The translations under genes and the position numbers were made by a program. 64,000 bases of DNA from a virus, in the IMG/VR virus record IMGVR_UViG_3300035670_000086, positions 35,867 to 99,866 of that record. The stretch is one strand, 5' to 3'. Positions 1,905 through 58,787 of this stretch are shown one piece after another. A model generated the notes under the pieces. It saw only the letters and a program-made list of their open reading frames with translations. It had not been told where the DNA came from and did no database searches. The stretch's first letter is position 1. Each line of letters opens with the position of its first letter.

Positions 1905-2501
1905 TCAAGTATTTGTGTTGGCATTCTGAACAATGAAATCGTAACGGAAAGTTGCTTCGATTGTATGGAACTCGTTAGTTGAGTAGTTAAACTCAGCTTG
2001 CTTCCAAGACTTAGGATACACACCGTAAAGCCGTGTGAATGACATTGGCTTACCCTTGTTATCCAACTGAACTATGTCTGCAACTGTTTTAAAGTTGCCG
2101 ACTACACCACCGGGGGTAACTTGTCTACCATTTTCAAACTCTCCTGTAACTGGATTGTAAATAGTTTTTATCCAGTCAAACAATAGAGAACTCATCTTAG
2201 TTTTGTACAAGTTATCAAACTGTACAGTTAGTTCTTCTGGGCTTGCTTTGCCGGGGTAGAAGACTTTATCGTTTACACGATGGACTTCTATATCTTCTAC
2301 AGTGTAACCAGTCTGGCTTACTGACTTAGCAGCCAAGGTCAAAGGACGATCAACGCCATTGGCAGCAGCAACGGGAACATTGTAGAATGTGATTTCCCAT
2401 TGATATGCACGCACGGAATCGAGATCCTGTGACACCATAGGGAGTTTCTTTCCCTGAAGGTTACGATTCTGAGATGTAACGAATAGTGGATTATATGGCA
2501 T
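1905..2501 (-). CDS. 19: Tail tube protein (gp19-like)
   Basis: 198 residues. It forms the inner tail tube through which DNA passes. It belongs to the gp19 tube family by its length, by the opening MPYNPLFVTSQNRNLQG and the core W-E-I-T-F-Y-N-V, by the mid-protein V-Q-F-D-N-L-Y-K-T-K-M-S-S-L-L-F-D-W segment, and by the C-terminal F-R-Y-D-F motif typical of T4-like tubes. T4 gp19 is 163 residues, so this is slightly longer. It lies 12 bases after the sheath gene, the usual sheath-tube order, and AAAGG before ATG 2501 is a suitable ribosome binding site. A hairpin follows the stop. Confidence 0.9.
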   Translation of the reverse strand: MPYNPLFVTSQNRNLQGKKLPMVSQDLDSVRAYQWEITFYNVPVAAANGVDRPLTLAAKSVSQTGYTVEDIEVHRVNDKVFYPGKASPEELTVQFDNLYKTKMSSLLFDWIKTIYNPVTGEFENGRQVTPGGVVGNFKTVADIVQLDNKGKPMSFTRLYGVYPKSWKQAEFNYSTNEFHTIEATFRYDFIVQNANTNT

Positions 2502-2513
2502 AGTCTATACCTT

Positions 2514-4595
2514 TCAGCTTCCTAGCTTGGCTGATTGATTAGTAACATTGATTTCGAATACAATGATTTCTGCGGTCTTGGTTGGCTTGAGTAAAATCTT
2601 GCACCAAAGTTCGTTGCGATCCACTCTAGCAGGAGTGTTAGTTGTTTCATCGCAAACCACCTTGTACTCTGTGATACCCCGTCTTCTACGAATATCGTCA
2701 AGGAGAGGATCTACCACACCAACAATATTTTCCCATGTTATTGGGTCGTTAGGTTCAAACACAAACGATTGAGTGCTTGCGAGTAGAACTTTGCGTAGGT
2801 AGATCATTAGTCTACGAACATTGATTCTATCCAAGGCACTTGGATTACGCTGTGCTGTGCGTTGACCAAAGATTGTGATACCTCTTTGTGGGAACTCAAC
2901 TACAGGGTTAATAACATTGCCACCACTGTAGAGAGAATCACGGTCCCCTTGGTTTAGTACAACATCTACATCTATCGGCTTGGTCAATCTACCTCTCTGG
3001 AATCCAGCAGGAGCAAACCAAGGATCTGCGATTGAGTCAGTGTAGCACATCTGGCGTGCGGCAAAGATGGTTGGGTCGTACCAACGGTCGATGCCATCAA
3101 AGACACTGTATACCTTTACCCAAGGCCAGAACACTGCTGCGTAGCTGCTATTGAGAGAAGCGGTTCTTGTTTCGCTTCTTCCATTTGTCCAATCTATGGC
3201 CTCTTGAACAGAGTCAACTGATCCATAAGGAGGAGCAACTAGTGCAATAAAGTTTTGAGTTTGTTCGGCTAAGGTAACCAAAGCATTCTGTAGACTTTGG
3301 TTATTCATGCCGGGGGTCAAAGCTATTGAGATGTTTAAAGTATCATCGTCTAGAGCGTAGATACCTGTTTTTGGTGTTTGAGTAGGATCGCCAATTAGAG
3401 CTAGAGCGTTGGTATCATCATCTGTGCTTGTGCCGTTAGTACCACTTCTTAGTGAGTAAGTACCTTCGATTGGCTTAACGAACATTCTAGCTGTGGCTGT
3501 TCCTGTGCCACCTTGTCCTGTACCAGTAATTCCAGTAACACCTAGGTCACTCAAAGGATCAGTGAATGCTCCTATTGGGGTAGCAGTGAAATCGGTCAAT
3601 GCTGCTCCAGAGGTCAAGTATCCAAGGATCACTTCTGATGTTGTGTTTTCTGCACCAGTGTTTATAATTTCTTCTACGAATGTATACTGGTTAACTAGAT
3701 CCCCCTTGAAGGTTTCTAGTGCAGCACCATCTTCGTTTAGTTGGAAGACTACTTTTTCACCACCGAGGCTATTAATTTCAAAAGAGTTTCCGATTGTGTT
3801 GCCATCTGAATCGGTGCTCAAGTTGTAGCCAGTTCCGGGGTATAGGGTTTCTACATAGTAAGCAACGCCGTTAGCACCACTAGCGAAGGTAGTTCCTATT
3901 ACAGTTAGTGATGAAGCTGCTGTGGCTGATGCTGTACCTGAGAAGTTTATGGCTTTTAGAGCGGATACACCATTGGTGAATGCCGCATCTGAATAGGCTG
4001 ATACTGATAAAGATGCACCTGAACCAGCCCAAGAACCAACAAGGTATCCAGTGGTTACATCTGAATCAGAGTAGAATATGCCAACCTTGTCATTATCTAA
4101 ACTTCCACCAATTACTGTCTTTAGAGCCAAGGCTTGACCACCTGATGCGGTAGTCTCTACTTGTCCTGATGGAACAGCAAACTGCTTAGTTACTAGATAC
4201 TGATTAACTCCCGTATTATCCGTTACATCTACCTTTAAATAAAGATTAGCTGATACGCCGAGTCCGCTTGCTACAAATTGAACCGCTGGGCAAGCACCGA
4301 TTGGAACTAGTGCAGAAGCCTCGGCAGCAGTTTGTGTAACTCCACGGACGAAATAAATTTTATTTGTAGCTTCTAAAATTTCGATAGCCCCTTCCAAGGC
4401 TTGGCCGGGGATGGACTCACTAGGCTTACCGAAAGTATTTATTAGCTGTTGAGGAGAAGTTATTAGGGTAGCCTCATCTACGGGACCCTTGGAAGCAAAT
4501 CCAACGATACCGACAATAGACGAATCTACCGTAGCTGCGTACTCGCTAATGTCCTTCTCTATTACATAAACGCCGGGAGATACAATATTAGCCAT
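2514..4595 (-). CDS. 18: Tail sheath protein (gp18-like)
   Basis: 693 residues, close to T4 gp18 (659). It is the contractile sheath subunit. The N-terminus MANIVSPGVYVIEKDISEYA is the signature of contractile sheaths, followed by G-I-V-G-F-A-S-K-G-P-V-D-E. The C-terminal third has the conserved core around W-P-W-V-K-V-Y, RGLYNPVVEFPQ-like and D-R-I-N-V-R-R-L-M-I-Y-L-R-K, with the final strand L-L-K-P-T-K-T-A-E-I-I-V-F. Residues about 170-420 are rich in Ser, Gly and Thr and probably form the variable surface domain. The start is supported by AAGGAT six bases upstream of ATG 4595. Confidence 0.95.
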   Translation of the reverse strand: MANIVSPGVYVIEKDISEYAATVDSSIVGIVGFASKGPVDEATLITSPQQLINTFGKPSESIPGQALEGAIEILEATNKIYFVRGVTQTAAEASALVPIGACPAVQFVASGLGVSANLYLKVDVTDNTGVNQYLVTKQFAVPSGQVETTASGGQALALKTVIGGSLDNDKVGIFYSDSDVTTGYLVGSWAGSGASLSVSAYSDAAFTNGVSALKAINFSGTASATAASSLTVIGTTFASGANGVAYYVETLYPGTGYNLSTDSDGNTIGNSFEINSLGGEKVVFQLNEDGAALETFKGDLVNQYTFVEEIINTGAENTTSEVILGYLTSGAALTDFTATPIGAFTDPLSDLGVTGITGTGQGGTGTATARMFVKPIEGTYSLRSGTNGTSTDDDTNALALIGDPTQTPKTGIYALDDDTLNISIALTPGMNNQSLQNALVTLAEQTQNFIALVAPPYGSVDSVQEAIDWTNGRSETRTASLNSSYAAVFWPWVKVYSVFDGIDRWYDPTIFAARQMCYTDSIADPWFAPAGFQRGRLTKPIDVDVVLNQGDRDSLYSGGNVINPVVEFPQRGITIFGQRTAQRNPSALDRINVRRLMIYLRKVLLASTQSFVFEPNDPITWENIVGVVDPLLDDIRRRRGITEYKVVCDETTNTPARVDRNELWCKILLKPTKTAEIIVFEINVTNQSAKLGS

Positions 4596-4833: not shown

Positions 4834-7800
4834 TTAAGTATTATTACCATTTAACTTTAATGCGTATTGAATGTACGCTATCAACGGAGCAACATAGAAT
4901 AAACCAGCAGGATTATTTTCTCCCATAGGAACAGTTCTTGCTTTATTTAAAGCGTAAGTCATGGATGTAAGATAATCTGCTGTTGACCACGCTGGATCTA
5001 AAACATTTGATATTGTATTATAATTAGAATTAAACCAAGCTGATTTATTTAAAAATTCATTGGATGAAGTTAGATTAGATAAGTTATCTCCAGCAGCAAT
5101 GATAGCACCTATTGCTATTGTTGAATGCCCATCCGTATTTCTTGCAAATCCAGATCTTGAAGGGAATTTGTTAAAATCACCTCCAGAGAATCCACTAGCA
5201 GGATTACCTATAGTAAAGTTACCTTTTCCGTAAATATCTGTTCCCCTCTTCCATGCTGGATAATGCCAAGAGTTTGTATTGCATACTAAAAACTCTGGGG
5301 GAGCAGCTATAGTTTTATTTGGATCCACAGAACTTAATGGATTTCCATTAATAGTAAAACTAGTTAAAACATTACCATAAGCTCCGGGATTTCTCCCTAG
5401 TATACTAAGTAATGTTCCACCAGAGTACTGAGACAATAATGTTGGAAGCTCAGGCATTTCAGCACAGCCAGAGAAATTATGAAATGCTGAATCTAGGAAC
5501 AGTGTTCGAGCAACTGAACTACAAGCATTATTTAATCCTGATGATATTACCGGATCAAATTCTTTAACTGATTTAACTAAGCATCGGAACAAGTAAACTT
5601 GATAATGCGATTGCATTACCGTAACCCAATAAGAACTAGCACTATAGATGCCACCCTGCAAATATAAATTTGGTTGACCAGCCTGTGTTAATGTTGGATA
5701 ATTTGAGTCTGGTGCTGGTTCCCAACTTACTTGCCCATCATTAGTACCTAAGGCATATGCTTTTCCTGACGGATTGTATAACCAATATCCTTTAGATGGA
5801 TTAGTAGGTATAGAACTAAAAGTATTTCCTGCTGCCAAAATTTGTTCTATATCTTGTGGATTTGGTGATGCTCCTGTTTGTTTACTTAAATGAAGACCCC
5901 CAATTAATCCATTTTGCGGTATGTAAGAATAATTTAAAGCACTTGCTGCATATTCAAATAATACTTGATTTTGATTTCTCCAATTGTTAGAAGCTATTTG
6001 ATAATACATGGCAGGACCACCGATACCAAACGCCAAGAATCTGACATTTGAAAATTGTCCTAATGCACCGTTTCCTCGACCACTTGGATTATCACGCAAA
6101 ACAGAGTAAAAATTTGTTAATGAATAATTTGTAGAATATGCGTTACCTCCACCAAGATTAGTGGGAATAGATAAAACTACAGAGCTTGGATATGGATTCA
6201 TTAGAATTGAATAGAATCCAGCGATAGATTCAAATTCTTCTTTCCACATCTCATCATTAGTTAAAGTTGTGATAGCATGCATTAAAGGGAACACACGACT
6301 TGAGTGTTCTGGGGATGCTGGTCTATATCCAGCTATATTCGTCCCATCAAAAATAGTCGCTCCATTAAAAGGCATACTAAAATAAGAATATTTACACGCA
6401 TTAACAAGGTTGTAGTTTAACAATTCTCCATAAATAATATTACCTTGAGAATTTGTTGATGGATTATCTTTTAGTTTTACAATATTGGAGAGATTAGAGT
6501 CTTCATAGGGTTCACATAGTTTTGAGTTTGATTTTTTTGATCCATAAATTTTTGGGAACAAGAATGGCTTACCATTATTTTCTATTACTCGACATCCCGG
6601 ATAACCACCGTACCCCCATTCATAAATAGTTGTTGGTGTTGTGGTTGTAGATGTAATTCCATAATGAGTCATTACCTGACCAGCAGAAATAGGAACACCG
6701 GAAAAATCAAAAATACCGTAGTACCTATCTGTAATAAAATGAGATTCTGCATTTAATAATCTCAAATAATTATTACTCAAAAACATACCTTTATACAAGT
6801 GAACAAGAGCTAATCCTCCGATATCTAGATTTCTAGACCCCATAACTGTATGAGGAGTTTTTACTCTGTACATCCAATTATATTCTGAATTATTAACATC
6901 TGTTCCTTGGTAATAAGCTGGGCTTGTTGGTGTGTATGCGTAAAAATTATGAAAATTTGTTCCTCTGGTCCCTATAGATCCATAATTACCTCCGGGATTT
7001 GCATTAGAGGGTTGTTCATATCTGCACAAACCATACTTAGTATTTTCTTCAAAATACTTATATAAATTATCACTAATTATGTTATATCCAGCCATACCAT
7101 CAACATTAGTGAATAATTTATAAGGACCATTATCAAAATAATCACCTACTTGATTTCCAAAGTGAGTATCGTTAAAACTTTTTTGCCCAACGAAATCATC
7201 ATTTATCAAAGGAGCTAAATCTTTGGTAGGACCCCACTTTGGAATTGTCCACCAAGTTCTTTTTCTATTTGGGAAGGCAACATCACCAAACTGTCCCATC
7301 TCCTTTGCATAAGAATAAGTAACATAAGAATTATCTACTGGGAACAATCTAAATCGTCTATGGAATTTTTTTACTTTTCCAATACCGTGAATATTAAACC
7401 CTAAAACTTTTTGTTCTGCTGTTAACTCTTCATCAGTATCGCTAGGGAAATATCCTTCTTTTCCTTGAGTTCTAATAATCCATTCAGGAATACTTTCAAA
7501 GTTATTAACTAAACCATATCTATTAACATCCCCATAGACATTACCCCAGTCTACATTTGAAAATCTTTCTAGTTCTGAAACGGCACTGACTCCAGAAGAA
7601 ACTTCAAACCACAAATCAGAGTAATAGAAATTACCTAAAACTTGATTTTCATTTTGTAGGACTGTGCCGATCCCTTTGCCTGCATCAATTCCTCTGTAAT
7701 CGTAGTTGCCGTTACTAATCTTAAAGTCTAATCCTACAATAGGGTCATCTTTTTTTATTGTTAAATATACATGCAAGCCTAAGGCGAATGGCTTTTTCTC

Positions 7801-9354
7801 ATCTGTAGGTGATGTAGTTGCCCAAGACTGTGGAAGCATTCTGGTGTAGAATCTATACACTCTTTTGTATGGACCGTCTTTTAAAATGCTAGAGACTGTT
7901 GCCGCTCCAGACCAAATGTTTCCTTGATATTGATATCCCGATAAATCTTTTACATAAAAGTATAGATTGTTTTGTATGTATGCTGGAATACTAAGCGTTG
8001 TTGCTGGTAAGGAATCGCTGGTGCTATATATGTCATAATATTGATATGACCCTGCCGCAGAAACTATTGTTGTTGGGAATACCACTTCTACAGTTTCTGC
8101 ACCTCCAGAAGCATCTCGAACAGTTTCGTGTGTTTGTGCAACAAAACCACTAGCAGAAATAGAATTAGTTCCAGCACCAGAAACTAACCATTTGTTATGA
8201 GAACCCCAAATTGAAGCGTTGAAATCACCGGAACTCAAAGGCATAACAGTATGAATTACAGTGCTTGCTCCTAGGACTGCACCGGATGGGACTACCCAAG
8301 CAATTTGACCCAAATAATCTGATGTTGGGTCTGGAGTTCCTTTAGGGATTGATGCCTCATAATAAACTCTAGTTTGCACAGTATTATAATTTGTGCTACT
8401 AGGTTGAGCGGACACTACTAGTAATCCAGTTCCAATTTCTGCGACTGAAATATTTCCTGATAATTGTCCATTTTGGGGGTTTATTTCAAAGGTTGTTCCT
8501 GTGGTCACAAGGCCAAAACTTCCACGCCTGAATGCGTTAGTCGGAGAAATAATTGGATTTAATGTTTCAATAGGTAATCCTAATTCTACTAACCACGGAT
8601 TTGCAGCAGTTGTGCCGTAAGATAATGTAGGTACAGGATCTGAACTTCCTCCATTCCCTCGTTGAGTTGTAGGAGCATCAATACCTGTTTCACCACTAGA
8701 AAGACTTTGCCAAGTTTCAAGTGATCCAAGATTAGTTACTTGAATTGTCCAAGTAAATTTTATAGAAAAATCTTTTGTCTTTTCAATCGGTACGAATTGT
8801 TTGTATGCTACAAGGACAGACTCTTTTGTACCTGTAGTGCCAACATTATCGGAAAATAAACCTACCTCTCGAACAGTTAAACCATTTGCTGTTTTCTTAT
8901 CTATGTTTAAAGTAACAACTACAGATGAATCATTTTTAACAGTGACTTGACTATCAGCAATTGTTATAAAAGAATTTAGTTCTTTAGAGTACTGTAAATT
9001 TTTTGATGATATAAATTCTTCTAAAGCAACTAAAGAATAGTGCTCAGAAACTCTAAAAGGCAATCCTGTGCCGTAAGCTGATTTATTTAGAGGAGAATTT
9101 AGTTTAAAGAAATTATATCTAAGTTCTGAGTTAGTATCAATTTTTTGATAATCAACGACACCTGTACCTAGTTGTGCATATCTTATAGAATAAGGATTTT
9201 TAGTTTGCCGAGATCCAGACAACAACATCGAGGTTATTGTAATGCCCATTCCTCGGGTAACAATATTATTATATTCCCCAACTTTCTCTACGAAATCTCC
9301 GTAGTCCTTATAAACCTCTAGTTTGCCTTGTACAGAATTTTTTAAATAACTCAT
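4834..9354 (-). CDS. Very large adhesin-like tail protein, possible polysaccharide-active domain
   Basis: 1506 residues. Residues 1-215 match the module that makes up the whole of the gene at 28013-28615: both begin with a G-x-x-E-x-x-K-x-Y segment, have N-x-I-V-x-x-G-M-G-x-x-x-x-x-L, and end in LVAYKQFVPIEKTKDFSIKF versus the equivalent LVAYKYFTPIEKSSDFALVF. Residues about 220-340 look like a linker plus an Ig-like fold (FEINPQNGQLSGNISV). From about 345 the protein is rich in Trp, Tyr and Gly with long strands, and the last 700 residues look like a helical toroid with aromatic motifs. That combination recalls exo-acting polysaccharide lyases (inference; no catalytic residue identified). It starts with ATGA overlap on the gp15-like gene. 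Likely a host-surface binding or depolymerising appendage. Confidence 0.75.
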   Translation of the reverse strand: MSYLKNSVQGKLEVYKDYGDFVEKVGEYNNIVTRGMGITITSMLLSGSRQTKNPYSIRYAQLGTGVVDYQKIDTNSELRYNFFKLNSPLNKSAYGTGLPFRVSEHYSLVALEEFISSKNLQYSKELNSFITIADSQVTVKNDSSVVVTLNIDKKTANGLTVREVGLFSDNVGTTGTKESVLVAYKQFVPIEKTKDFSIKFTWTIQVTNLGSLETWQSLSSGETGIDAPTTQRGNGGSSDPVPTLSYGTTAANPWLVELGLPIETLNPIISPTNAFRRGSFGLVTTGTTFEINPQNGQLSGNISVAEIGTGLLVVSAQPSSTNYNTVQTRVYYEASIPKGTPDPTSDYLGQIAWVVPSGAVLGASTVIHTVMPLSSGDFNASIWGSHNKWLVSGAGTNSISASGFVAQTHETVRDASGGAETVEVVFPTTIVSAAGSYQYYDIYSTSDSLPATTLSIPAYIQNNLYFYVKDLSGYQYQGNIWSGAATVSSILKDGPYKRVYRFYTRMLPQSWATTSPTDEKKPFALGLHVYLTIKKDDPIVGLDFKISNGNYDYRGIDAGKGIGTVLQNENQVLGNFYYSDLWFEVSSGVSAVSELERFSNVDWGNVYGDVNRYGLVNNFESIPEWIIRTQGKEGYFPSDTDEELTAEQKVLGFNIHGIGKVKKFHRRFRLFPVDNSYVTYSYAKEMGQFGDVAFPNRKRTWWTIPKWGPTKDLAPLINDDFVGQKSFNDTHFGNQVGDYFDNGPYKLFTNVDGMAGYNIISDNLYKYFEENTKYGLCRYEQPSNANPGGNYGSIGTRGTNFHNFYAYTPTSPAYYQGTDVNNSEYNWMYRVKTPHTVMGSRNLDIGGLALVHLYKGMFLSNNYLRLLNAESHFITDRYYGIFDFSGVPISAGQVMTHYGITSTTTTPTTIYEWGYGGYPGCRVIENNGKPFLFPKIYGSKKSNSKLCEPYEDSNLSNIVKLKDNPSTNSQGNIIYGELLNYNLVNACKYSYFSMPFNGATIFDGTNIAGYRPASPEHSSRVFPLMHAITTLTNDEMWKEEFESIAGFYSILMNPYPSSVVLSIPTNLGGGNAYSTNYSLTNFYSVLRDNPSGRGNGALGQFSNVRFLAFGIGGPAMYYQIASNNWRNQNQVLFEYAASALNYSYIPQNGLIGGLHLSKQTGASPNPQDIEQILAAGNTFSSIPTNPSKGYWLYNPSGKAYALGTNDGQVSWEPAPDSNYPTLTQAGQPNLYLQGGIYSASSYWVTVMQSHYQVYLFRCLVKSVKEFDPVISSGLNNACSSVARTLFLDSAFHNFSGCAEMPELPTLLSQYSGGTLLSILGRNPGAYGNVLTSFTINGNPLSSVDPNKTIAAPPEFLVCNTNSWHYPAWKRGTDIYGKGNFTIGNPASGFSGGDFNKFPSRSGFARNTDGHSTIAIGAIIAAGDNLSNLTSSNEFLNKSAWFNSNYNTISNVLDPAWSTADYLTSMTYALNKARTVPMGENNPAGLFYVAPLIAYIQYALKLNGNNT

Positions 9355-11642
9355 GATAATTCATCCATAATTTCTATATTATAATAGAATCGTTCTATTT
9401 CCCCAGTCGAACTAAAAGTGAATTTAGGAGACGGTATATAAGTCTCTACATTAACAGTAAAGGATCTCATTAAAATTCTATCCTCTCGGTCAGAAACTGT
9501 TAAAGTAGATTCGTCAGTTTCTTCAGCTAAGGTGGCTTTCGTATTGTCCGATATTGATGTATTTAGTTCGTAGGAGGGATTAAATAGTAATTGTATTTGT
9601 TCTGTTAACTGGTCCAAGTCTGATTTATACTTAGACAATATGGTGACCTTGTATGATATATCTACTGGCTTAGGAGATAAACTTACAACTCTTCTTGCTC
9701 TTTGGATACGGTCATCCCAAATAGACTCACTTACCACTAATGGGAAATATTTTTGTCGATCTGTGGTTATTTTTGTTGACGGCTGCGATATTGATATTAT
9801 TGGTAGGATTAAATTATCTTCCTGTATCTGTTTAGCTATCGAGCGTTCTGGGTTTGCGTAAATACATTTTACGGACTGAAGTTTATTTTCCCAATCTATT
9901 AATTTAAACTGGGAGAACACATGTCGCATGGATCTTAGAGTGTCCTTGTATGTTAAAGATATATTACTCTCCTGATCCACGGTTTCCAATAGTAACTCTC
10001 TAACTCTGTAAGACGCATCTTTAGACGGAACAATTTCGTTTACTGTGTTGCGTTGCTTATAGTTAATTGGCTTGATACTAGTAGTTTCTGATGCTGAAAG
10101 ATTATCTGTAGTTTCTGGGATGACATCTACTAAATAATTTTCTGAGTAGAACCGCTCAATCTTGCCAGTAGAACTAAACACAAATTTCGGAGCAGGAATA
10201 TAAGTTTCCACCGATATCGTGTAAGTTCTAATTAATACCCTATCTTCACGATCTCCAACTGTAAGAGATGATTCACTTGCCTCTTCTACAAGTTTTGCTT
10301 TTGTATTGGTAGAGATACTAGTTTGTAACTCGTGTGATGGATTAAACAATAAGTTTAATTGTTCACTTAGTTGATCTAAATCACTAGCGTACTTAGCAAT
10401 GAAACTTACTTTATAATTAATGTCTATCGGACGAGGAGCTAGACTAACGACTCTTGTTGCCCGTTGCTTCCGATCATCCCAAATAGATTCGCTAACCACT
10501 AATGGAAGATATTTTTGTCGAGCATTGTTTACTGTTGCTGTAGGTTGAGTAACAGATATAATCGGGAAAATTAAATTTCGCTCTTGGTCAATTTTAGCTA
10601 TTGCCCGTTCTGGGTTTCCATAGAAGCAAGAAACAAGTTGAGTCTCCTCACTAGAGTTTAAGATTTTAAACTTAGATAAAGAGGAATGTACAGCACGCAA
10701 AGTATCTTTAAATACTAGTGAAATGTTTGCTGATTCTTTTGCAGTCTCTAATATTAGCTCTCTGACACGATAAGAAGCGTCCTTCTCTATAGACACAGTG
10801 TTGGAAGCATTCTCTCCCGTTCTAGGCATCTTTATATATAAAGTTTCTTGTGATGCATCTACAGCGGAATCAACAGGCATTTCTTCTACAACATTAGAAT
10901 CTGTATTAAATCTTTCTATTTTGCCTGTAGAGCTAAAAACAAATTTCGGACTAGGAATATAAGTTTCTACTGTGATAGTAAAAGTCTTAGTCAATACTCT
11001 ATCTTCTCTGTCTGCTACCTCTAAAGCAGATTCGTTTGTCTCCTCTATTAACACGGCTTTTGTATTGTTTGCAAAGCTAGTTTGAAGTTCACAGGAAGGA
11101 TTAAATAGTAAGTAGATCTGTTCTGATAACTGATCTAAATCATTTTTGTATTTTGTAAATACTGAGATCTTGTATGAAATATCAACTGGCTTGGGAGCTA
11201 AACTAATAACTCTACTAGCTCTCTGGCGACGATCATCCCACTTAGATTCACTAACAATCAAAGGAACATACTTACGACGATCAGGTTTCGCTACCGTGGT
11301 TGGCTGAGATACCGATATTAGTGGGAGAATGATATTTTCTTCTTGTATAATCTTGGCTATAGAACGCTCTTGATTAGCCGTTATACACTTTACAGCCTGT
11401 AAAGACTCATCAGAATTGATAACATTCAGCCTAGAGAACAAACTTCTCATAGACCGAAGAGTATCTCTGTAGACTAGAGATATATTATTCTCAGCAGAAG
11501 ATGCCTGCTCTAAATACTCCCGTATGCGATACGATGATGATTTACCTGTGATTAGATCAGGCAATAATTGGATTTCCGTAGGCTTACCTACGATAATCGG
11601 AATTTCCTGTGGTCTAACTTGCCCAAGTAATGTTAAAAACAT
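9351..11642 (-). CDS. 15: Triple-repeat tail terminator / sheath stabiliser (gp15 family x3)
   Basis: 763 residues made of three homologous copies, at about 37-245, 290-499 and 544-752. Each copy has, in order, SYR(I/V)RE, D-T-L-R-x-x-x, a YANPERSIAK-like strand, (I/L)(L/F)P(L/I)IS(V/I)(S/T)QP, SES(I/K)WDDR, SLAP(K/R)P(V/I)D, D-L-D-Q-L-(S/T)-E-Q, LFNPS, DREDR and a closing (P/A)SPKF-FSSTG segment. T4 gp15 (272 residues) has the same order: D-L-F-S-N, ILPRI, N-P-S-P-I-K-M-I-Y-E-L-S-I-F-T-R-Y, D-D-M-F-Q-I-V-E-Q. In T4, gp15 caps the tail as a hexameric ring and joins it to the neck. The neighbouring gp13 and gp14 genes support the role. One chain here carries three subunits' worth of fold. Confidence 0.85.
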   Translation of the reverse strand: MFLTLLGQVRPQEIPIIVGKPTEIQLLPDLITGKSSSYRIREYLEQASSAENNISLVYRDTLRSMRSLFSRLNVINSDESLQAVKCITANQERSIAKIIQEENIILPLISVSQPTTVAKPDRRKYVPLIVSESKWDDRRQRASRVISLAPKPVDISYKISVFTKYKNDLDQLSEQIYLLFNPSCELQTSFANNTKAVLIEETNESALEVADREDRVLTKTFTITVETYIPSPKFVFSSTGKIERFNTDSNVVEEMPVDSAVDASQETLYIKMPRTGENASNTVSIEKDASYRVRELILETAKESANISLVFKDTLRAVHSSLSKFKILNSSEETQLVSCFYGNPERAIAKIDQERNLIFPIISVTQPTATVNNARQKYLPLVVSESIWDDRKQRATRVVSLAPRPIDINYKVSFIAKYASDLDQLSEQLNLLFNPSHELQTSISTNTKAKLVEEASESSLTVGDREDRVLIRTYTISVETYIPAPKFVFSSTGKIERFYSENYLVDVIPETTDNLSASETTSIKPINYKQRNTVNEIVPSKDASYRVRELLLETVDQESNISLTYKDTLRSMRHVFSQFKLIDWENKLQSVKCIYANPERSIAKQIQEDNLILPIISISQPSTKITTDRQKYFPLVVSESIWDDRIQRARRVVSLSPKPVDISYKVTILSKYKSDLDQLTEQIQLLFNPSYELNTSISDNTKATLAEETDESTLTVSDREDRILMRSFTVNVETYIPSPKFTFSSTGEIERFYYNIEIMDELS
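9387..11534 (-). repeat. Three in-frame copies of the gp15-like domain
   Basis: Copy 1 spans about 11534-10908, copy 2 10775-10146, copy 3 10013-9387, with a period near 254 codons. Inter-copy linkers are about 44 residues and not conserved. The copies are diverged at DNA level, so the triplication is old. Confidence 0.9.
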
Positions 11643-11658
11643 GTATCACACCTAAACC

Positions 11659-12228
11659 TCAATCGGGTCGGCTATTTAAGACACCACCTAGTTCTTTACT
11701 AATATCTGTAAGTGGAGTGTTTTGAATATCAGGAGAATCACGAAGGATCTTAGCTGTGCAAACATAGTGATACACACCATAAGCCTCAAAGCTATCTTCC
11801 TGCACTTCAAAAATCTCGTACATCACATGCTGAAAATGTGGTTGAATCAAATCCCCCGGAATAGGAGATCTACCTATTCTACGCTCAACATATGACTTGT
11901 TGAATGTAAAAACTTGATCGCTGGTTAATTGAATACCAAACTGTGTTAAGTTTTCTTCTATTACTTTAGGATCATAGTGAGAGTATAAAGTAATTGGAGA
12001 TCTTGCAATCGGCTTATTCTTCTGTTCCATATAGACATCATCATACTCTTCTGATCTATGGAACTTATAGTAATTTACCTTTGATCCAGACAGTCTAATT
12101 TGTTCGTCATCAACCATATTGAAGAATCCAATATCAGGATTCCGTTGGTCGAACAAACTAAGTTCGCTATCCACATTTGCGGATTCTACTTCTGGAATTT
12201 TAGTTGTTACTTTAAAATTCTTTTTCAT
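11659..12228 (-). CDS. 14: Neck protein (gp14-like)
   Basis: 189 residues. It forms part of the head-tail connector that closes the head and receives the tail. The central segment Q-F-G-I-Q-L-T-S-D-Q-V-F-T-F-N-K-S-Y followed by R-I-G-R-S-P-I-P-G-D-L-I-Q-P and Y-E-I-F-E-V-Q-E-D matches T4 gp14 (N-F-G-M-Q-V-Q-D-E-V-T-L-S-I, P-K-E-G-D-L-I-Y-F-P, L-F-E-I-N-W-V-E). T4 gp14 is 256 residues, so this is a short form. Its ATG overlaps the stop of gp13 as TAATG, indicating coupled translation, and gp15 follows, giving the T4 order 13-14-15. Confidence 0.85.
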   Translation of the reverse strand: MKKNFKVTTKIPEVESANVDSELSLFDQRNPDIGFFNMVDDEQIRLSGSKVNYYKFHRSEEYDDVYMEQKNKPIARSPITLYSHYDPKVIEENLTQFGIQLTSDQVFTFNKSYVERRIGRSPIPGDLIQPHFQHVMYEIFEVQEDSFEAYGVYHYVCTAKILRDSPDIQNTPLTDISKELGGVLNSRPD

Positions 12229-13088
12229 TAGTATAGACTAAACCCGGGGGGTTCCTCAAATTCAGACATGAGTTGTTTATCTAGTAATTCTAATTCTTTT
12301 TCACTCTGTTGAAGTAGGGCATCTCCGTTTAATTGAGATCCGCCCCCCGGCCCGGGCAATGTTCTATACTTACCACGAACCTGACCTAAAATACCTTTGC
12401 ATACAGCTAATGCGTATCTTTGAATAAAGTTTCTGTACGCTGGGTGAATTGTGCCAGAATCAATCGCACGATATTGTACAATGACAGTATCGGTAAAAGC
12501 TGGAACAGGATATAGCTGAAGATACTGGTTGTTAAGGATATCAAAGGAACCATCTTGTCCTAAGATCTTTCTCATCTGCTCCAAACTGATTTGAAGTAGA
12601 TTAAACTCACCTATGCTAAAGTCGTTGAACAAAAAGTTTTGTTGGAAATACTTTAGGAAGTAATCTTGTTCTAAAGTTTGTCCCATGCCCGGAATACCTA
12701 TCAAATCTTTCTTGTAAACAACATATGTTATATTATCAATAACATAGTTTGGTAGCTCGTAAGTATTAACTCCGGGAGTAGTTTTAAATGTCATTAACTG
12801 AGCAGTACACAGGGGTGCATGAAAAGATAACTTAGTTATGGCTTCATCAATAGCTATCTTTATTTGGTAATCAGTAAGCTCTACTCTTATTGTAGGATAT
12901 CCGAGTCTACCCAAAACAAAAGATTTTATTTGGTCTTCAAATTGTGTTAGTTCTACAGGATCTTGTAACCCAGTTTCGTTTAAACTAGAAGTTATAATAT
13001 CCCCTTTTGGTTTTATAGAAAAAACATTATTTCCGTAAGGAATTCCAAAGCTGTTACCATAACTACCAGTTTCAGGTTTTATCTGCAT
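12228..13088 (-). CDS. 13: Neck protein (gp13-like)
   Basis: 286 residues (T4 gp13 is 309). It is a head-completion protein binding the portal side of the neck. Family features are the segment F-V-L-G-R-L-G-Y-P-T-I-R-V-E-L-T-D-Y-Q-I-K-I-A-I-D-E-A read in pieces, a YELPNYVIDNI strand, L-Y-P-V-P-A-F-T-D-T and the C-terminal Y-A-L-A-V-C-K-x-x-L-G-Q-V-R-G-K-Y with a Gly/Pro-rich P-G-P-G-G-G. It is the first gene after the major capsid terminator, so it needs read-through or its own promoter; a TATATAAT element lies just upstream. Confidence 0.85.
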   Translation of the reverse strand: MQIKPETGSYGNSFGIPYGNNVFSIKPKGDIITSSLNETGLQDPVELTQFEDQIKSFVLGRLGYPTIRVELTDYQIKIAIDEAITKLSFHAPLCTAQLMTFKTTPGVNTYELPNYVIDNITYVVYKKDLIGIPGMGQTLEQDYFLKYFQQNFLFNDFSIGEFNLLQISLEQMRKILGQDGSFDILNNQYLQLYPVPAFTDTVIVQYRAIDSGTIHPAYRNFIQRYALAVCKGILGQVRGKYRTLPGPGGGSQLNGDALLQQSEKELELLDKQLMSEFEEPPGFSLY

Positions 13089-15406: not shown

Positions 15407-16111
15407 TTATTTTTTGTAGCGATTAACGATTTTATCTATTTCACGAGCAAGGGATTCAGCCTTGCTTATTTCTTCTATATTTACATCCTCAATGATTTCC
15501 TGAGGCTTGTATTTTAAATCTAGCTTATTTTTAAGTAGCGTAACTAATACATTCTCTCTCAAAGCCTGTTGCTTAGTCTTCTGTTTTAATAATAGCGTAG
15601 ATTCTGAGACAGATGGGAATGCTCCTCTTGTGCTTGGGTCTGCAACTAGGTCGAAGGTTACCATTTTATAATCTTCTTGAACCTCTTGCTTACCCGGAGT
15701 ATCGTCACATTCCTTTAAGCTACCTAGACCACGGCTTGAGATACCGATTCTAACACCGTCTTTAATTAACTGTTGTGCAACCTTACCAGCAGGAGTATTA
15801 AGCAATTCAGCTTCTCCAATTAGTTTGTTACCATCCCAATCTAATTTTGTAATTAAGTGTGAGACATTTGTTAATTTAACAGATGTATACTCAGGGTGAT
15901 CTAGTTCACCTAGCAATCTTCTCTCTGTAATCATAGGCATTAGTTTGCCCATCTCACGCTCTAATAACGACTTCTTGTAGCGACGATTGTTATTATTAAA
16001 CTCATCGGCTCTACCGAAGATGCCTGCTACACGAACCAAACCATTACCTGATTTAGATTCGTTGATTACTCGTACTGAGTCTGTACCAAAAAAGTCTGTT
16101 AATAGATTCAT
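15407..16111 (-). CDS. 21: Prohead core serine protease (gp21-like)
   Basis: 234 residues (T4 gp21 is 212). It matures the prohead by cutting scaffold, capsid protein and internal proteins after Glu in (L/I)-x-E sites. Catalytic candidates are visible: His72 in L-G-E-L-D-H-P, Ser125 or Ser126 in G-I-S-S-R-G-L-G-S, and Asp154/Asp158 in F-D-L-V-A-D-P-S, matching the herpesvirus-protease-like fold family. The N-terminal V-I-N-E-S could be a self-cleavage site. It is followed by scaffold and capsid genes and preceded by eight small proteins that look like its substrates. Confidence 0.93.
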   Translation of the reverse strand: MNLLTDFFGTDSVRVINESKSGNGLVRVAGIFGRADEFNNNNRRYKKSLLEREMGKLMPMITERRLLGELDHPEYTSVKLTNVSHLITKLDWDGNKLIGEAELLNTPAGKVAQQLIKDGVRIGISSRGLGSLKECDDTPGKQEVQEDYKMVTFDLVADPSTRGAFPSVSESTLLLKQKTKQQALRENVLVTLLKNKLDLKYKPQEIIEDVNIEEISKAESLAREIDKIVNRYKK

Positions 16112-28012: not shown

Positions 28013-28615
28013 TTAGAATGTTATAGTCCACTTAAATACTAGTGCAAAATCAGAAGATTTTTCTATAGGTGTAAAATATTTATATGCTACAAGGATGGGG
28101 GCTGGAGTTGATAACTTTCTAATGTTATGTACAAATAACCCGATCTCATCCAAGTAATCAGGAAGCCCGTTCGCATTGTTTGCACCTAAAAATAAAATGT
28201 ATTGCACGGCATTTTTGGATACTCGAACAATATTATTATCAGGTATTTTAGCGAAAATTTTATTACTGACAATCGTCCCGTTAGCTAATTGACTAAGAGT
28301 AGACAATTGTAACTCCCCTGTCTGCCCGTAAGAATCTATGCTACTTAAAGATGATCCTAGCTGATAAGTTCCTATTCCGGGCACAGATCCGTCAGTTCCG
28401 ACTTGGAACCATCTAATCTGGTAATCATATGCTTTATCGGATCCAGATGCAGCAAATAGGTGAGATAAAGCTACACCCATACCAGATACAATCTGGTTAG
28501 AGTCCGAGAAATGGAGTTCTCGCTTCCCGTCTGGGTAAACTTTCCAAATTTCAATTTCCCCTGTAGGGCTATAAACTTCTCTATTTGATCTCATACTTGT
28601 ATATATTTCTCCCAC
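28013..28615 (-). CDS. Short adhesin-module protein
   Basis: 200 residues, a stand-alone copy of the module at the N-terminus of the 1506-residue protein at 4834-9354. Shared marks are G-E-I-E-I-W-K-V-Y near residue 19, Q-I-V-S-G-M-G-V, I-R-W-F-Q-V-G-T, D-E-I-G-L-F-V-H-N and the closing L-V-A-Y-K-Y-F-T-P-I-E-K. The F-x-x-x-x-W-T-I-T-F end is a typical final strand. It sits among wedge and fibre genes, so it may be an adaptor that lets a fibre bind the baseplate (inference). Confidence 0.7.
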   Translation of the reverse strand: MGEIYTSMRSNREVYSPTGEIEIWKVYPDGKRELHFSDSNQIVSGMGVALSHLFAASGSDKAYDYQIRWFQVGTDGSVPGIGTYQLGSSLSSIDSYGQTGELQLSTLSQLANGTIVSNKIFAKIPDNNIVRVSKNAVQYILFLGANNANGLPDYLDEIGLFVHNIRKLSTPAPILVAYKYFTPIEKSSDFALVFKWTITF

Positions 28616-53210: not shown

Positions 53211-53606
53211 TTAATCAAATATTTTGTCTAGTGTTATTTCCCCTAAATCTGCATCTGAATCACTTTCATTTAAAACATCAAATATTATGACTCCAAAACT
53301 ACTAGCTATCCATCTAAAATATATAGTATCTCCATTTACAACACTAAAAGTACCCCCATCAGGGGATATAAGAATTGCGCTTCCCCCATTTTTTATGTAA
53401 TATAAGTCTCCTCCATCATTAGCAATCAATAATAATCTTAGAGTTATTGTTGTGTTAATACCTGCAATTAATTTAGATGAACTATCAACTTCAGGTGCAG
53501 CTAGACCCACATATTCAGTAAAATCAGTAGTACAAGTTACATCACTACCACCACCAGTTGATTTCTTGGCTAACATACCAACCTTAAATGCCATGCCACC
53601 AAACAT
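53211..53606 (-). CDS. Small structural protein following the fibre
   Basis: 131 residues from ATG 53606, which forms TAATG with the fibre stop and so is chosen over an upstream start inside the fibre gene. Beta-rich: F-K-V-G-M-L-A-K-K-S, L-R-L-L-L-I-A-N-D-G-G-D-L-Y-Y-I, then an acidic end with N-E-S-D-S-D-A-D. Pattern fits a small trimeric fibre tip or collar; function not recognised. An alternative start is the ATG four codons later. Confidence 0.66.
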   Translation of the reverse strand: MFGGMAFKVGMLAKKSTGGGSDVTCTTDFTEYVGLAAPEVDSSSKLIAGINTTITLRLLLIANDGGDLYYIKNGGSAILISPDGGTFSVVNGDTIYFRWIASSFGVIIFDVLNESDSDADLGEITLDKIFD

Positions 53607-55696
53607 TAGAAGTTTTGACCTCCAACAAATCCATACCAAGTAGTTCCGTTATCAGGTGATACGAAACTTAAAATATCTACTTTACCATTAGTACTTGTTA
53701 GTGTTGGCCCCGTTCCACTAGGCCATTTTACAGATGCAGGCCAAGAAATAGTTCTTGCTGTTCCGTCAGCAGTTAGAATAAGTGTAAATCCTTGAACTGT
53801 GTTAGCTCTAGAATCTGTATTGCTTATCGTTAATGTTGAAATGTTAGAGTTTAGCGATACAGTGAATACTTGTGAATTATTCAGATCAAGGGTAAGAGCA
53901 CTACTAGAAATAGTGGGAGCAGATTTAGATTCAGAATAATCTGTCATTCTAACTGCACTAACATCTCCACTGGCTGTAGTCAATAACCCAGTTACTGTAA
54001 ACCCGTTAGGTGCTTGTTGTGCATTTAAAGCGGAAGTGGCACTAGTGGCGTTTAAAGATTCTGTTGCACTAGTGGCATAAGTCCAAACCAAAGTTCCAGA
54101 CGGTAAGTTGTAATAATTAGTTGCAGATACAGATGGGACTTGTAAAGCTACTACATCTGTTTGTAAATATATATCACCATCTGACCCACCCGTGGGAACA
54201 GCACTACCATAAGTGTATGCAAACAATGCAGCAGATGCAGTCCAAACAGAACCATTGTACATTAGTGCTTGTCCTGCTGTGGGAACTAATGTGGCTGATA
54301 ATGGTGATCCTCTTAAAGAAGATGCATCTGCTATTCCACCACCACCTCCAAATACAGAAGATGGAACTATTGTGTAGTATGAATTTATTGTATCCCAAGC
54401 TAATATATCACCATCAGAAAGGGGAACCGATCCTACATCAATAGCATATCCATTTAGTGATGATGCATCCGACTGTGGTAGATTTATATAATTTGTTGCA
54501 GATACTGTTGTTGCAGATGCTGTTCCTGTAACATACAGATTATTATTGATTTGCATCTGCGCTTGGAAATAACTCTTGCCTTGAACATAGAGTCTAGCGT
54601 CAGCAGGAGCAGAATAAATACCGGATGCAATATCAAAACTATTTTTAACTACTCCACCATCTACGGATAGTGTAGTTCCTGATAAAGTAGTTGATCGAGT
54701 TGTCCCAGTTACTACAAACCCAGCGGGAGCTTGTGTTGCATTTAGTGCTGATGTTGCGCTTGTAGCGTTTAGTGCCGAGGTAGCACTTGTGGCGTTCAAG
54801 GCCAGTGTAGATGATCCAGCTAAATCAGCATACCCAGCAGAAGCCCAAACTATTACGCTTGAAGGTAAATTAATATAATTTACAGCAGATACTGTTGTTG
54901 CACTAACTGTTTGAAAGTAAAAAGCCGAGTTAACAGAATCACCAGAAGCATTAATATAATTTGTATTTAGTGTGGCTAAATCCCAGTGAACCGCAGAAGC
55001 TAAGTGATTAGATACGGTAGAACTTAGAGCATTGTTTGTAGCGGATAGAACATACTGAGGATGGTCATTATCTGATAAACCTAATATTGACCCGTGGTCA
55101 ATTTCCGCTTGTGTAAAGTGTACAGAAGCACTAGTTATGTGGTCATTTACTAATGAACTTAATGTGTTATTAGTAGAAGATAAAACATATTGTGGGTGAT
55201 CATTATCTGACAGTCCTAAGATACCGCCGTGGTCAATTTCTGCTTGTGTAAAGTGTACAGAAGCACTAGCAATGTGGTTTGATACAGTAGAACTTAAAGT
55301 ATTGTTTGTAGCGGATAAAACATACTGGGGATGGTCATTATCCTCTAGACCAGTCAATGCTCCGTGGTCAGTAACACCACCTCCACCACCCGCAGCAATG
55401 GTAGATGCAGTCCAAACAGATCCGTTGTAAACTAATGCTTGATTTGTTATTGGAACTAATGTGGCAGATAGTGGAGATGATTGTAGTGCAGAAGCATTCC
55501 ACTGTGCAGTTGTGTTTCCTAGATTTAAATATGTCGTTGCAGATACTGTTGTTGCGCTTAGTGTCCCCGTTACAATAAAACCATTCGGAGCTTGCGCCGA
55601 ATTTAGTGCAGATGTAGAACTAGTAGCTAGACCAGCAGATCCAGCACTTGTTGCATAATCAACACTAGATGGGGATGGCGCAAAAAATATTGACAT
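53606..55696 (-). CDS. Repetitive tail fibre protein with D-H-P-Q-Y repeats
   Basis: 696 residues. Residues 110-242 hold three near-identical 45-residue units, each with D-H-G-x-L-x-G-L-x-D-N-D-H-P-Q-Y and H-I-A-S-A-S-V-H-F-T-Q-A-E-I; His-containing D-x-x-H-P-x-Y elements of this type bind metal along fibre shafts. Later comes an Ala/Ser/Thr-rich stretch (ATSATSALNATSATSALNAT) and a block shared with the 618-residue fibre. The C-terminus (T-I-S-W-P-A-S-V-K-W-P, D-G-T-T-W-Y-G-F) is a known fibre end domain pattern. Likely a trimeric side or long fibre that touches the host. Confidence 0.8.
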   Translation of the reverse strand: MSIFFAPSPSSVDYATSAGSAGLATSSTSALNSAQAPNGFIVTGTLSATTVSATTYLNLGNTTAQWNASALQSSPLSATLVPITNQALVYNGSVWTASTIAAGGGGGVTDHGALTGLEDNDHPQYVLSATNNTLSSTVSNHIASASVHFTQAEIDHGGILGLSDNDHPQYVLSSTNNTLSSLVNDHITSASVHFTQAEIDHGSILGLSDNDHPQYVLSATNNALSSTVSNHLASAVHWDLATLNTNYINASGDSVNSAFYFQTVSATTVSAVNYINLPSSVIVWASAGYADLAGSSTLALNATSATSALNATSATSALNATQAPAGFVVTGTTRSTTLSGTTLSVDGGVVKNSFDIASGIYSAPADARLYVQGKSYFQAQMQINNNLYVTGTASATTVSATNYINLPQSDASSLNGYAIDVGSVPLSDGDILAWDTINSYYTIVPSSVFGGGGGIADASSLRGSPLSATLVPTAGQALMYNGSVWTASAALFAYTYGSAVPTGGSDGDIYLQTDVVALQVPSVSATNYYNLPSGTLVWTYATSATESLNATSATSALNAQQAPNGFTVTGLLTTASGDVSAVRMTDYSESKSAPTISSSALTLDLNNSQVFTVSLNSNISTLTISNTDSRANTVQGFTLILTADGTARTISWPASVKWPSGTGPTLTSTNGKVDILSFVSPDNGTTWYGFVGGQNF
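54563..54684 (-). repeat. Fibre module copy 1 (pairs with 57639-57760)
   Basis: 122 bases aligning without gaps to 57639-57760, with about 15 mismatches by eye. Both encode V-D-G-G-V-V-K-N-S-F-D-I-A-S-G-I-Y then L-Y-V-Q-G-K-S-Y-F-Q. Suggests recent exchange or duplication of a fibre module. Confidence 0.85.
54970..55369 (-). repeat. Three tandem 135-base fibre repeats
   Basis: Encode the three 45-residue D-H-P-Q-Y units; the third is trimmed at its end. Near-identity between copies suggests recent expansion or gene conversion. Confidence 0.85.
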
Positions 55697-56930: not shown

Positions 56931-58787
56931 TTATGAACTAAAGTCGTAGAATAATCCGGGAGCAGCACCAGTTCCTGCCGTGGTTCCTGCTTTTGGGAAA
57001 GTTGACGGTAAAGAACTATCATAAGTATGTGTTGCATACAAGTGAGTAGTCCAAGTTGTGTTTGCAGAACTAGCTGTCCCTAGTATATAGTGAGTTTGGT
57101 TCGTAGATATTCCCCGTATTACTGGTGCTCCATTAGCTACAACTGCTAACCAATAAAGTTGTCCGGGAATTAATGTATAAGCAATATTCCAAGTTCTTTT
57201 TTGTGCGTTTGTAGTAGTATCTAGCTCCACTGCCCCTTGTGCTACTAACTCATCAGGGTAAAGATCATTCTCTGCTGAATTAGTATATAATCCCATGATT
57301 GCGGATGTGCTGGCTGCTCCTGTAGTGACATAAATTTCTATATCATCTATCGTTGCACCTCGTCTTGGAGAAACAAAAGGCATAGCATACAATCTATTAG
57401 CAGTCATTGTGAATGTGCCTAGTGTTACTCCTGTCATCAATCCAGCGGCATACCAAGATGTGTAGTTAGTGGTTACTGCATTAGCAAAATCGTCAATAGA
57501 TGCTTCTTCTAACCAACTATAATCAATTTTACCACTAGATTTAGCTCTTGGAATCCCAGAGTCCGTTGCCGTATCGTATATATTTCCTGCCGTTATAGCT
57601 CCTGATACCGTTAAATTATTGCTTAGAGTTACTAAACTTTGGAAATATGATTTTCCTTGAACATACAGTCTAGAGTCAGCAGGAGCAGAATAAATGCCAG
57701 ATGCGATATCAAAACTATTTTTAACTACTCCACCATCTACAGTCAATGTCGTTCCTGATAGAGATCCAAATTTACCTTGACCAGAGACATTAACTGCTTG
57801 CACATTTGTAAATGTGCTTGTAGTTGTGCTGTAACTAATCAAGTCGCCGTTAGTAAGACCAGACGCTAGATTAAACCCTACAATGTCATTAATGTGAATT
57901 GGGTTAGCAACATCTATCAGAATAGAACCATTATTTACGCTTTGTCTAGTTACAATACCTAAGAATACTTCATCGTAAGGAGCAGGTAGTTTAACATTAG
58001 TAAACCCACCGCTAGAAGCTAAGTATAAAATATCTCCTTCGTTGTATGCATTAGTGTTAAACTTGTATAAAGTTCCTTTAGTAAGAACATGACCAAATTC
58101 ATTGTTAGGAATATCATGTTCTACTACACCAATACATCTACTCAAATCACCATTTGGAGCTTCAGGTACATGGTTATTCGCTGCCGATACTGCTCCGATT
58201 AAAACATTGTCTCCCGTAGCTCCGGTTACTCTTACAGGAGTTCCTTTAGCTAATGTAGATCCAGTATCGTTTTTAGCTACTACTACAACACCATAAGCTC
58301 TGTCATAATCTAAAGAATACCAATTATTTCCAGCAGCTATTACAGTAACAGACTCTGTTGGATCGTACAAACGAACTGTATTTGTCGCAGTTTGTAATGT
58401 TGCGCCAGATAATGTAACCGATCTATAAGATCCACCATCATCAATCTTAGATACTGTTATTTTTCTATCAGCATACGCAGATGCATCAGGTAAGTATAGT
58501 GTTACTGATGTCGTAGTGGTATTAACTAAGAAGGTATCAAAACCACCATTGATATTTAAAGAAGTGGTTGTTGCACTATCAACAGCACAAACATAAGGTC
58601 TAATATTTCTATACTCAGTTGCAGAAACTGTTGAAGCATATAAAGTAGTAACAGTTAATGAGTCATAAGAAATATCACTCACTGCTAAATAACTTGCTGG
58701 TATTGTGTCACCACTAGTTATTTCCCGAAGACCGGAGACTTCCCCCGCTCCGTTTCTTGATAATCCAATCGGAAGAAAATCTGCCAT
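56931..58787 (-). CDS. Tail fibre protein
   Basis: 618 residues. N-terminus M-A-D-F-L-P-I-G-L-S-R-N-G is a likely attachment segment. Residues about 165-300 form a beta domain (R-A-Y-G-V-V-V-V-A-K-N-D-T-G, L-A-K-G-T-P-V-R-V-T-G, D-I-P-N-N-E-F-G-H-V-L). Then comes the module shared with the 696-residue fibre (V-D-G-G-V-V-K-N-S-F-D). The C-terminal domain contains P-G-Q-L-Y-W-L-A-V-V-A-N-G, a strand pattern common in fibre tips. First fibre gene after the 631-residue protein. Confidence 0.75.
   Translation of the reverse strand: MADFLPIGLSRNGAGEVSGLREITSGDTIPASYLAVSDISYDSLTVTTLYASTVSATEYRNIRPYVCAVDSATTTSLNINGGFDTFLVNTTTTSVTLYLPDASAYADRKITVSKIDDGGSYRSVTLSGATLQTATNTVRLYDPTESVTVIAAGNNWYSLDYDRAYGVVVVAKNDTGSTLAKGTPVRVTGATGDNVLIGAVSAANNHVPEAPNGDLSRCIGVVEHDIPNNEFGHVLTKGTLYKFNTNAYNEGDILYLASSGGFTNVKLPAPYDEVFLGIVTRQSVNNGSILIDVANPIHINDIVGFNLASGLTNGDLISYSTTTSTFTNVQAVNVSGQGKFGSLSGTTLTVDGGVVKNSFDIASGIYSAPADSRLYVQGKSYFQSLVTLSNNLTVSGAITAGNIYDTATDSGIPRAKSSGKIDYSWLEEASIDDFANAVTTNYTSWYAAGLMTGVTLGTFTMTANRLYAMPFVSPRRGATIDDIEIYVTTGAASTSAIMGLYTNSAENDLYPDELVAQGAVELDTTTNAQKRTWNIAYTLIPGQLYWLAVVANGAPVIRGISTNQTHYILGTASSANTTWTTHLYATHTYDSSLPSTFPKAGTTAGTGAAPGLFYDFSS

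Follow-up and report, generated by a model that had tools for sequence, protein, structure and literature searches.

Three fused gp15-family tail sheath terminator domains in a single chain encoded by an environmental virus

The window analysed here comes from a T4-like environmental phage and is a DNA stretch of 64,000 nucleotides (positions 35,867 to 99,866 of the IMG/VR virus record IMGVR_UViG_3300035670_000086). At 9351..11642 on its minus strand lies an ORF with an ATG start and no internal stop, coding for a 763-aa protein with three fused domains of gp15, the tail sheath terminator (or stabilizer). Boundaries of the domain cores are approximate (residues ~37-245, 291-498 and 545-752). 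An N-terminal extension of 36 residues (11535..11642, minus strand), predicted to be disordered and by eye unlike the N terminus of the single-copy sister proteins, precedes repeat 1 (residues 37-245; 10908..11534, minus strand). Repeat 2 (residues 291-498; 10149..10772, minus strand) and repeat 3 (residues 545-752; 9387..10010, minus strand) follow, each after a linker with predicted disorder: linker 1 with 45 residues (246-290; 10773..10907, minus strand), which seems to combine the C-tail and the N-tail of the single-copy gene in a fusion, and linker 2 with 46 residues (499-544; 10011..10148, minus strand). The interval 9387-11534, reported earlier in a sequence-only reading of this DNA, covers everything between the start of repeat 1 and the end of the repeat 3 core.

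Pairwise identity of the three repeats was 59-64%, well beyond chance, and all three carry the invariant residues of the family. The motifs SESxWDDR (positions 131/384/638), LFNPS (179/432/686), DREDR (211/464/718) and YIP[SA]PKF (228/481/735) occur once per repeat. The sequence-only reading had listed the first three of these together with ILPxIS as kept in every domain; we confirmed the three, while the fourth has the form IFPIIS in repeat 2.

The tripled gene adjoins the equivalents of the neck genes 13 and 14, in the same order as in T4 (adaptor, neck protein, gp15). The position of gp14 in this T4-like order 13-14-15 is held by a single-copy 189-aa protein (11659..12228, minus strand; sisters 80-85% identical, own family match weak), the expected partner of the ring. 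Next to it is a single-copy gp13-like head-tail adaptor Ad2 of 286 aa (12228..13088, minus strand; PHROG 211; sisters 82-85% identical). The tail sheath protein gp18 is of ordinary size, 693 aa (2514..4595, minus strand; PHROG 23, PF17482; sisters 83-84% identical), and its last ring should be capped by gp15. The gp19-like tail tube protein of 198 aa (1905..2501, minus strand; PHROG 4542 and 45; sisters 88% identical) is present in a single copy too.

On its other side the tripled gene overlaps by 4 bases a gene for a 1506-aa protein (4834-9354, minus strand). The N-terminal ~205 residues have a homologue in the small protein of ~200 aa that adjoins gp15 in relatives (PHROG 5417), and the rest is a large extension with no family match. 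Between the window and the sisters this protein is 61-63% identical, a divergence equal to that between the sisters. Another PHROG 5417 protein, of 200 aa, is encoded among the baseplate genes (28013-28615, minus strand) and shares 30% identity with this N-terminal part (205 residues) of the 1506-aa protein; thus, the same module is seen at both ends of the tail. The idea that the large downstream protein requires the triplication as its anchor was rejected as a simple link, since the same neighbour (~1520 aa) accompanies the single gp15 of the sisters L027 and L059.

With respect to family membership, we found that PF16724 (T4-gp15_tss) matches the protein in three stretches (E=1.7e-25, 90.1 bits for the whole protein). 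In the search of the window's own record, repeats 1, 2 and 3 scored 48.4, 29.3 and 33.9 bits, each above the curated cut-off of 25 bits. The profile of PHROG 227, 'tail sheath stabilizer', matches in three stretches as well, and the profile built from the family of the tripled protein retrieves T4 gp15 by sequence (E=9.5e-8). The earlier claim of three full gp15-like domains in one 763-residue chain is therefore upheld, and the tripled protein belongs firmly to the gp15 family. No second gp15 match was found by PF16724 elsewhere in the 99,866-bp record of the window, which is linear and possibly incomplete.

An AlphaFold2 model of repeat 3, made with 22 homologues, had a mean pLDDT of 77. In a Foldseek search of this model against the PDB, ranks 1-6 were all T4 gp15 chains (9MKB at E=1.9e-9; moderate TM-scores of 0.46-0.64); next came tail terminators from other phages and from contractile systems. 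The model of the full chain had a mean pLDDT of 60 and a pTM of 0.33, with no reliable domain-domain geometry, and predicted residues 235-305 and 488-543 as disordered. In the mixed alignment the single-domain relatives could be aligned to repeat 3 alone; still, each third was predicted with the same succession of helices and strands, even in the two thirds with almost no aligned homologues. The sequence-only reading had expected every third to match gp15. By profile this holds for all three domains, and by structure for repeat 3, the one third that the fold search of a model covers. A usual gp15 has one domain per chain and this chain has three, which makes it a departure from the usual form and not from the sequence and fold criteria of the family; tandem tail-ring domains fused in one chain, as in T5 pb6 and pb3, are what we see here.

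The window comes from an environmental virus record, where metagenome assembly could create a chimera. We found, however, the complete tripled ORF on two other IMG/VR contigs (L001 and L002), while on L003 and L004 it is cut by the contig end in a way consistent with the complete form. These four contigs have ~97% DNA identity to the window over 5.6 to 12.9 kb. Moreover, the repeats differ from one another at 56-64% of third codon positions, which is beyond assembler confusion. Since independent contigs carry the tripled ORF, we reject an assembly artefact, the probability of which is negligible.

In the tripled gene L001 and L002 are identical and differ from the window by 51 substitutions, 43 synonymous and 8 non-synonymous. 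The resulting pN/pS (window vs L001/L002), although based on small counts, was 0.054 overall and 0.072, 0.046 and 0.023 for repeats 1, 2 and 3. By this measure the three domains are clearly under purifying selection, and the low value in all three copies indicates that each copy is now needed. That none of the domains is degenerate, as was thought from the first inspection, agrees with the pN/pS range (0.02-0.07) and with the invariant residues kept in all three, which together rule out degenerate copies.

The nearest single-copy relatives, referred to as sisters, are L027 (the same as L060), L059 and L061-L063. Their gp15 proteins have 242-249 aa and are 61-70% identical to each repeat, and they share with the window the order of the capsid, adaptor, neck and large downstream genes. 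Of the 167 loci that we inspected (some being re-fetches of the same contigs), 158 had one gp15 domain and nine had three. Those nine comprise the record of the window plus L001 and L002, each of which was fetched more than once. A search with T4 gp15 gave 2,110 matching places in 2,107 phage records, and repeated gp15 appears to be at least very rare in named phages. On the sequences compared, the tripled gp15 is an innovation of one lineage. Other candidates for repeated gp15 did not hold: the huge phage LR756511, considered as a second case of duplication, has one domain, and so do the long gp15 proteins of Campylobacter and Vibrio phages (343 and 414 aa).

The string KDASYR, which ends the N terminus of the sister gp15, also ends both linkers just before repeats 2 and 3, and this fits a fusion of whole tandem genes. 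In a tree the three repeats and three sisters formed one clade (100/100) with no resolution of the inner order, and the AU test did not reject a single origin of the three repeats (p=0.196).

Besides the fusion itself, the gp15 copies differ in divergence from the genes around them. The sister gp15 proteins are 77-82% identical among themselves, compared to 61-70% between repeats and sisters, while for the adaptor, the gp14-position protein, the capsid, the sheath and the tube the window-sister similarity is nearly that among the sisters. These figures suggest faster evolution of gp15 after the triplication; an accelerated rate is not claimed, because Tajima relative-rate tests on the copies were mostly not significant. 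The copies differ most in the N-terminal helices and in the strand region around positions 38-53, and the C-terminal segment PxPKFxFSSTGxIERF is the best kept between the three (88%).

In T4, gp15 is a hexamer present in 6 copies (PMC3004832), and the C-terminal arm of gp14 binds gp15 residues 203-245 (PMC12270204). We propose that a normal gp15 gene was tandemly duplicated twice and came to be read through in frame, which would yield a tail sheath terminator in the form of a covalent trimer. As the sequence-only reading had also suggested, two tripled chains would then fill the six places that six gp15 monomers hold in T4, and the resulting ring would cap the last sheath disc and dock the gp14/gp13 neck. 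The symmetry of such a ring could be no higher than C2, its positions being of three different kinds (R1-R2-R3-R1'-R2'-R3'), and the copies, freed from six-fold identity, would have diverged while all of them stayed under purifying selection. We consider it probable that the virion has six gp15 domains contributed by two chains that arose by this twofold in-frame tandem duplication. What we infer is the two-chain ring, a chain that stays uncleaved in the virion, and any benefit of the fusion.

The partner proteins are in single copy and share 80-88% identity with their counterparts in single-gp15 sisters; we therefore see no sign that the number of docking places has changed. With such ordinary partners, the simplest reading is that there are six gp15 places and that two chains fill them. 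The conservation of the C-terminal segment would follow from each copy docking a partner of its own, although the mapping to T4 residues 203-245 is approximate because the alignment ends there. The disordered linkers of 45-46 residues would be long enough to join neighbouring domains; being flexible, they would be compatible with other arrangements too, and side-by-side seating of the domains of one chain would not be forced.

Single gp15 domains could, in principle, still be produced. We saw no clear Shine-Dalgarno sequence at any in-frame start in either linker, and internal ribosome sites giving single domains were set aside on this ground; this is weak evidence, since the ORF's own start and the neighbouring genes also have no strong site. 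Alternatively, the chain could be a polyprotein with linkers cut by the phage S77-type prohead protease or a host enzyme, releasing three gp15 monomers for a mixed hexamer. An S77 protease gene is present at 15407..16111, the linkers are predicted to be disordered, and VVE and IPE, one in each linker, fit the loose motif [LIV]xE, the type of motif cut by T4-like head proteases. Such a short motif is expected by chance, however, as it is also present (VRE) where the folded part of repeats 2 and 3 begins. Furthermore, the T4 prohead protease is active within the prohead, while gp15 is added to the tail in a separate pathway. We regard cleavage as quite improbable. Much the same holds for a virion with more than six gp15-type domains, in which three or six chains would form extra rings, decorate the neck or replace the gp3 tube terminator. 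The flexible linkers would permit it, a non-exhaustive search of the window proteins found no gp3-like tube terminator, and the large gp15 extensions in five relatives (L006, L016, L030, L040 and L053) indicate that additions are tolerated at gp15. Yet all three domains keep the conserved residues and the C-terminal segment, none diverging to another role, and the partner proteins have no matching change; we deem extra domains rather improbable.

A more serious contender is a neutral or dosage event with no structural purpose, giving three domains per translation, fixed by drift and then held by the divergence of the copies. The fusion is limited to one lineage, the sisters with the same gene order manage without it, and selection for divergence finds little backing in the relative-rate tests, most of which were not significant. 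The low pN/pS tells us that each copy is now needed, and it does not contradict a neutral origin. We see this origin as a distinct possibility, short of being probable. Our confidences in the readings are not mutually exclusive: after a neutral or dosage event the ring may still consist of two chains.

If two chains do close the ring, its function could be affected as well. A C2 ring with three specialised gp15 positions might break the six-fold symmetry between sheath and neck and fix the register of neck and tail, for example by choosing the sites of collar fibres; we hold this to be unlikely. The suggestion in the sequence-only reading that three distinct interfaces might impose asymmetry or register is kept as speculation.

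Compared to T4 gp15 (PF16724; PDB 4HUD, 4HUH and 9MKB), the protein is alike in family by profile (three domains), in fold (repeat 3) and in gene order. It differs in having three domains in 763 aa with disordered linkers against one domain of 272 aa present in six copies, and the sequence identity over the fold alignment is ~17%. The sister gp15 proteins (L027/L060, L059 and L061-L063) are much closer, in identity per repeat and in synteny that includes the large downstream protein, and differ in having a single domain. Covalent fusion within a six-fold tail ring is already known: the T5 tube protein pb6 and baseplate hub protein pb3 have duplicated tail-tube domains, and their trimers form pseudo-hexamers; the terminator of T5, p142, is a hexamer without such fusion (PMC11784142, PMC10038345). 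Domain duplication with fusion and, if two chains build the ring here, fewer chains per six-fold tail ring are common to both systems. The T5 proteins show duplication and trimers in the tube and hub, as opposed to triplication and a putative dimer in a sheath terminator. Outside phage tails, the bacterial sliding clamp is a dimer of three-domain chains and PCNA a trimer of two-domain chains. By analogy, the clamp is also a pseudo-six-fold ring of six domains from two three-domain chains; its fold and function are unrelated, and its domains are tightly joined, in contrast to the long flexible linkers here.

As far as could be checked, the triplication of a tail terminator in one chain is new. 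No description of this form was found in the literature searched, which missed most subscription journals, in agreement with what the sequence-only reading had stated. Should two chains indeed close the ring, a natural homohexameric phage ring would have turned into a dimer of covalent trimers. With near relatives keeping the hexamer, it would offer a matched before/after pair for symmetry breaking at the head-tail junction, as well as a case for how homo-oligomers evolve into fused pseudo-symmetric rings, and its 3 x 2 arithmetic would join the 2 x 3 rings of T5 tails.

In further lineages of the phage group, a single gp15 domain with a long C-terminal extension was observed in ORFs of 909-1618 aa (L006:4793-7519, L016:1810-5133, L030:4023-6803, L040:4127-7477 and L053:4902-9755), with a TIG domain in L053. 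Such extensions are possibly neck appendages anchored directly on the terminator ring. For L055 (QCKN01000003.1, 130,604 bases), a relative with a single gp15 domain, the contig belongs to a Prochlorococcus single-cell assembly, and part of the phage group may thus have cyanobacteria as hosts. In the window itself, two large proteins (53606-55696 and 56931-58787, minus strand) have in common a 67-residue segment, 70% identical (residues 329-395 and 334-400, respectively), and the protein at 53606-55696 ends in a tail-fibre-like domain.
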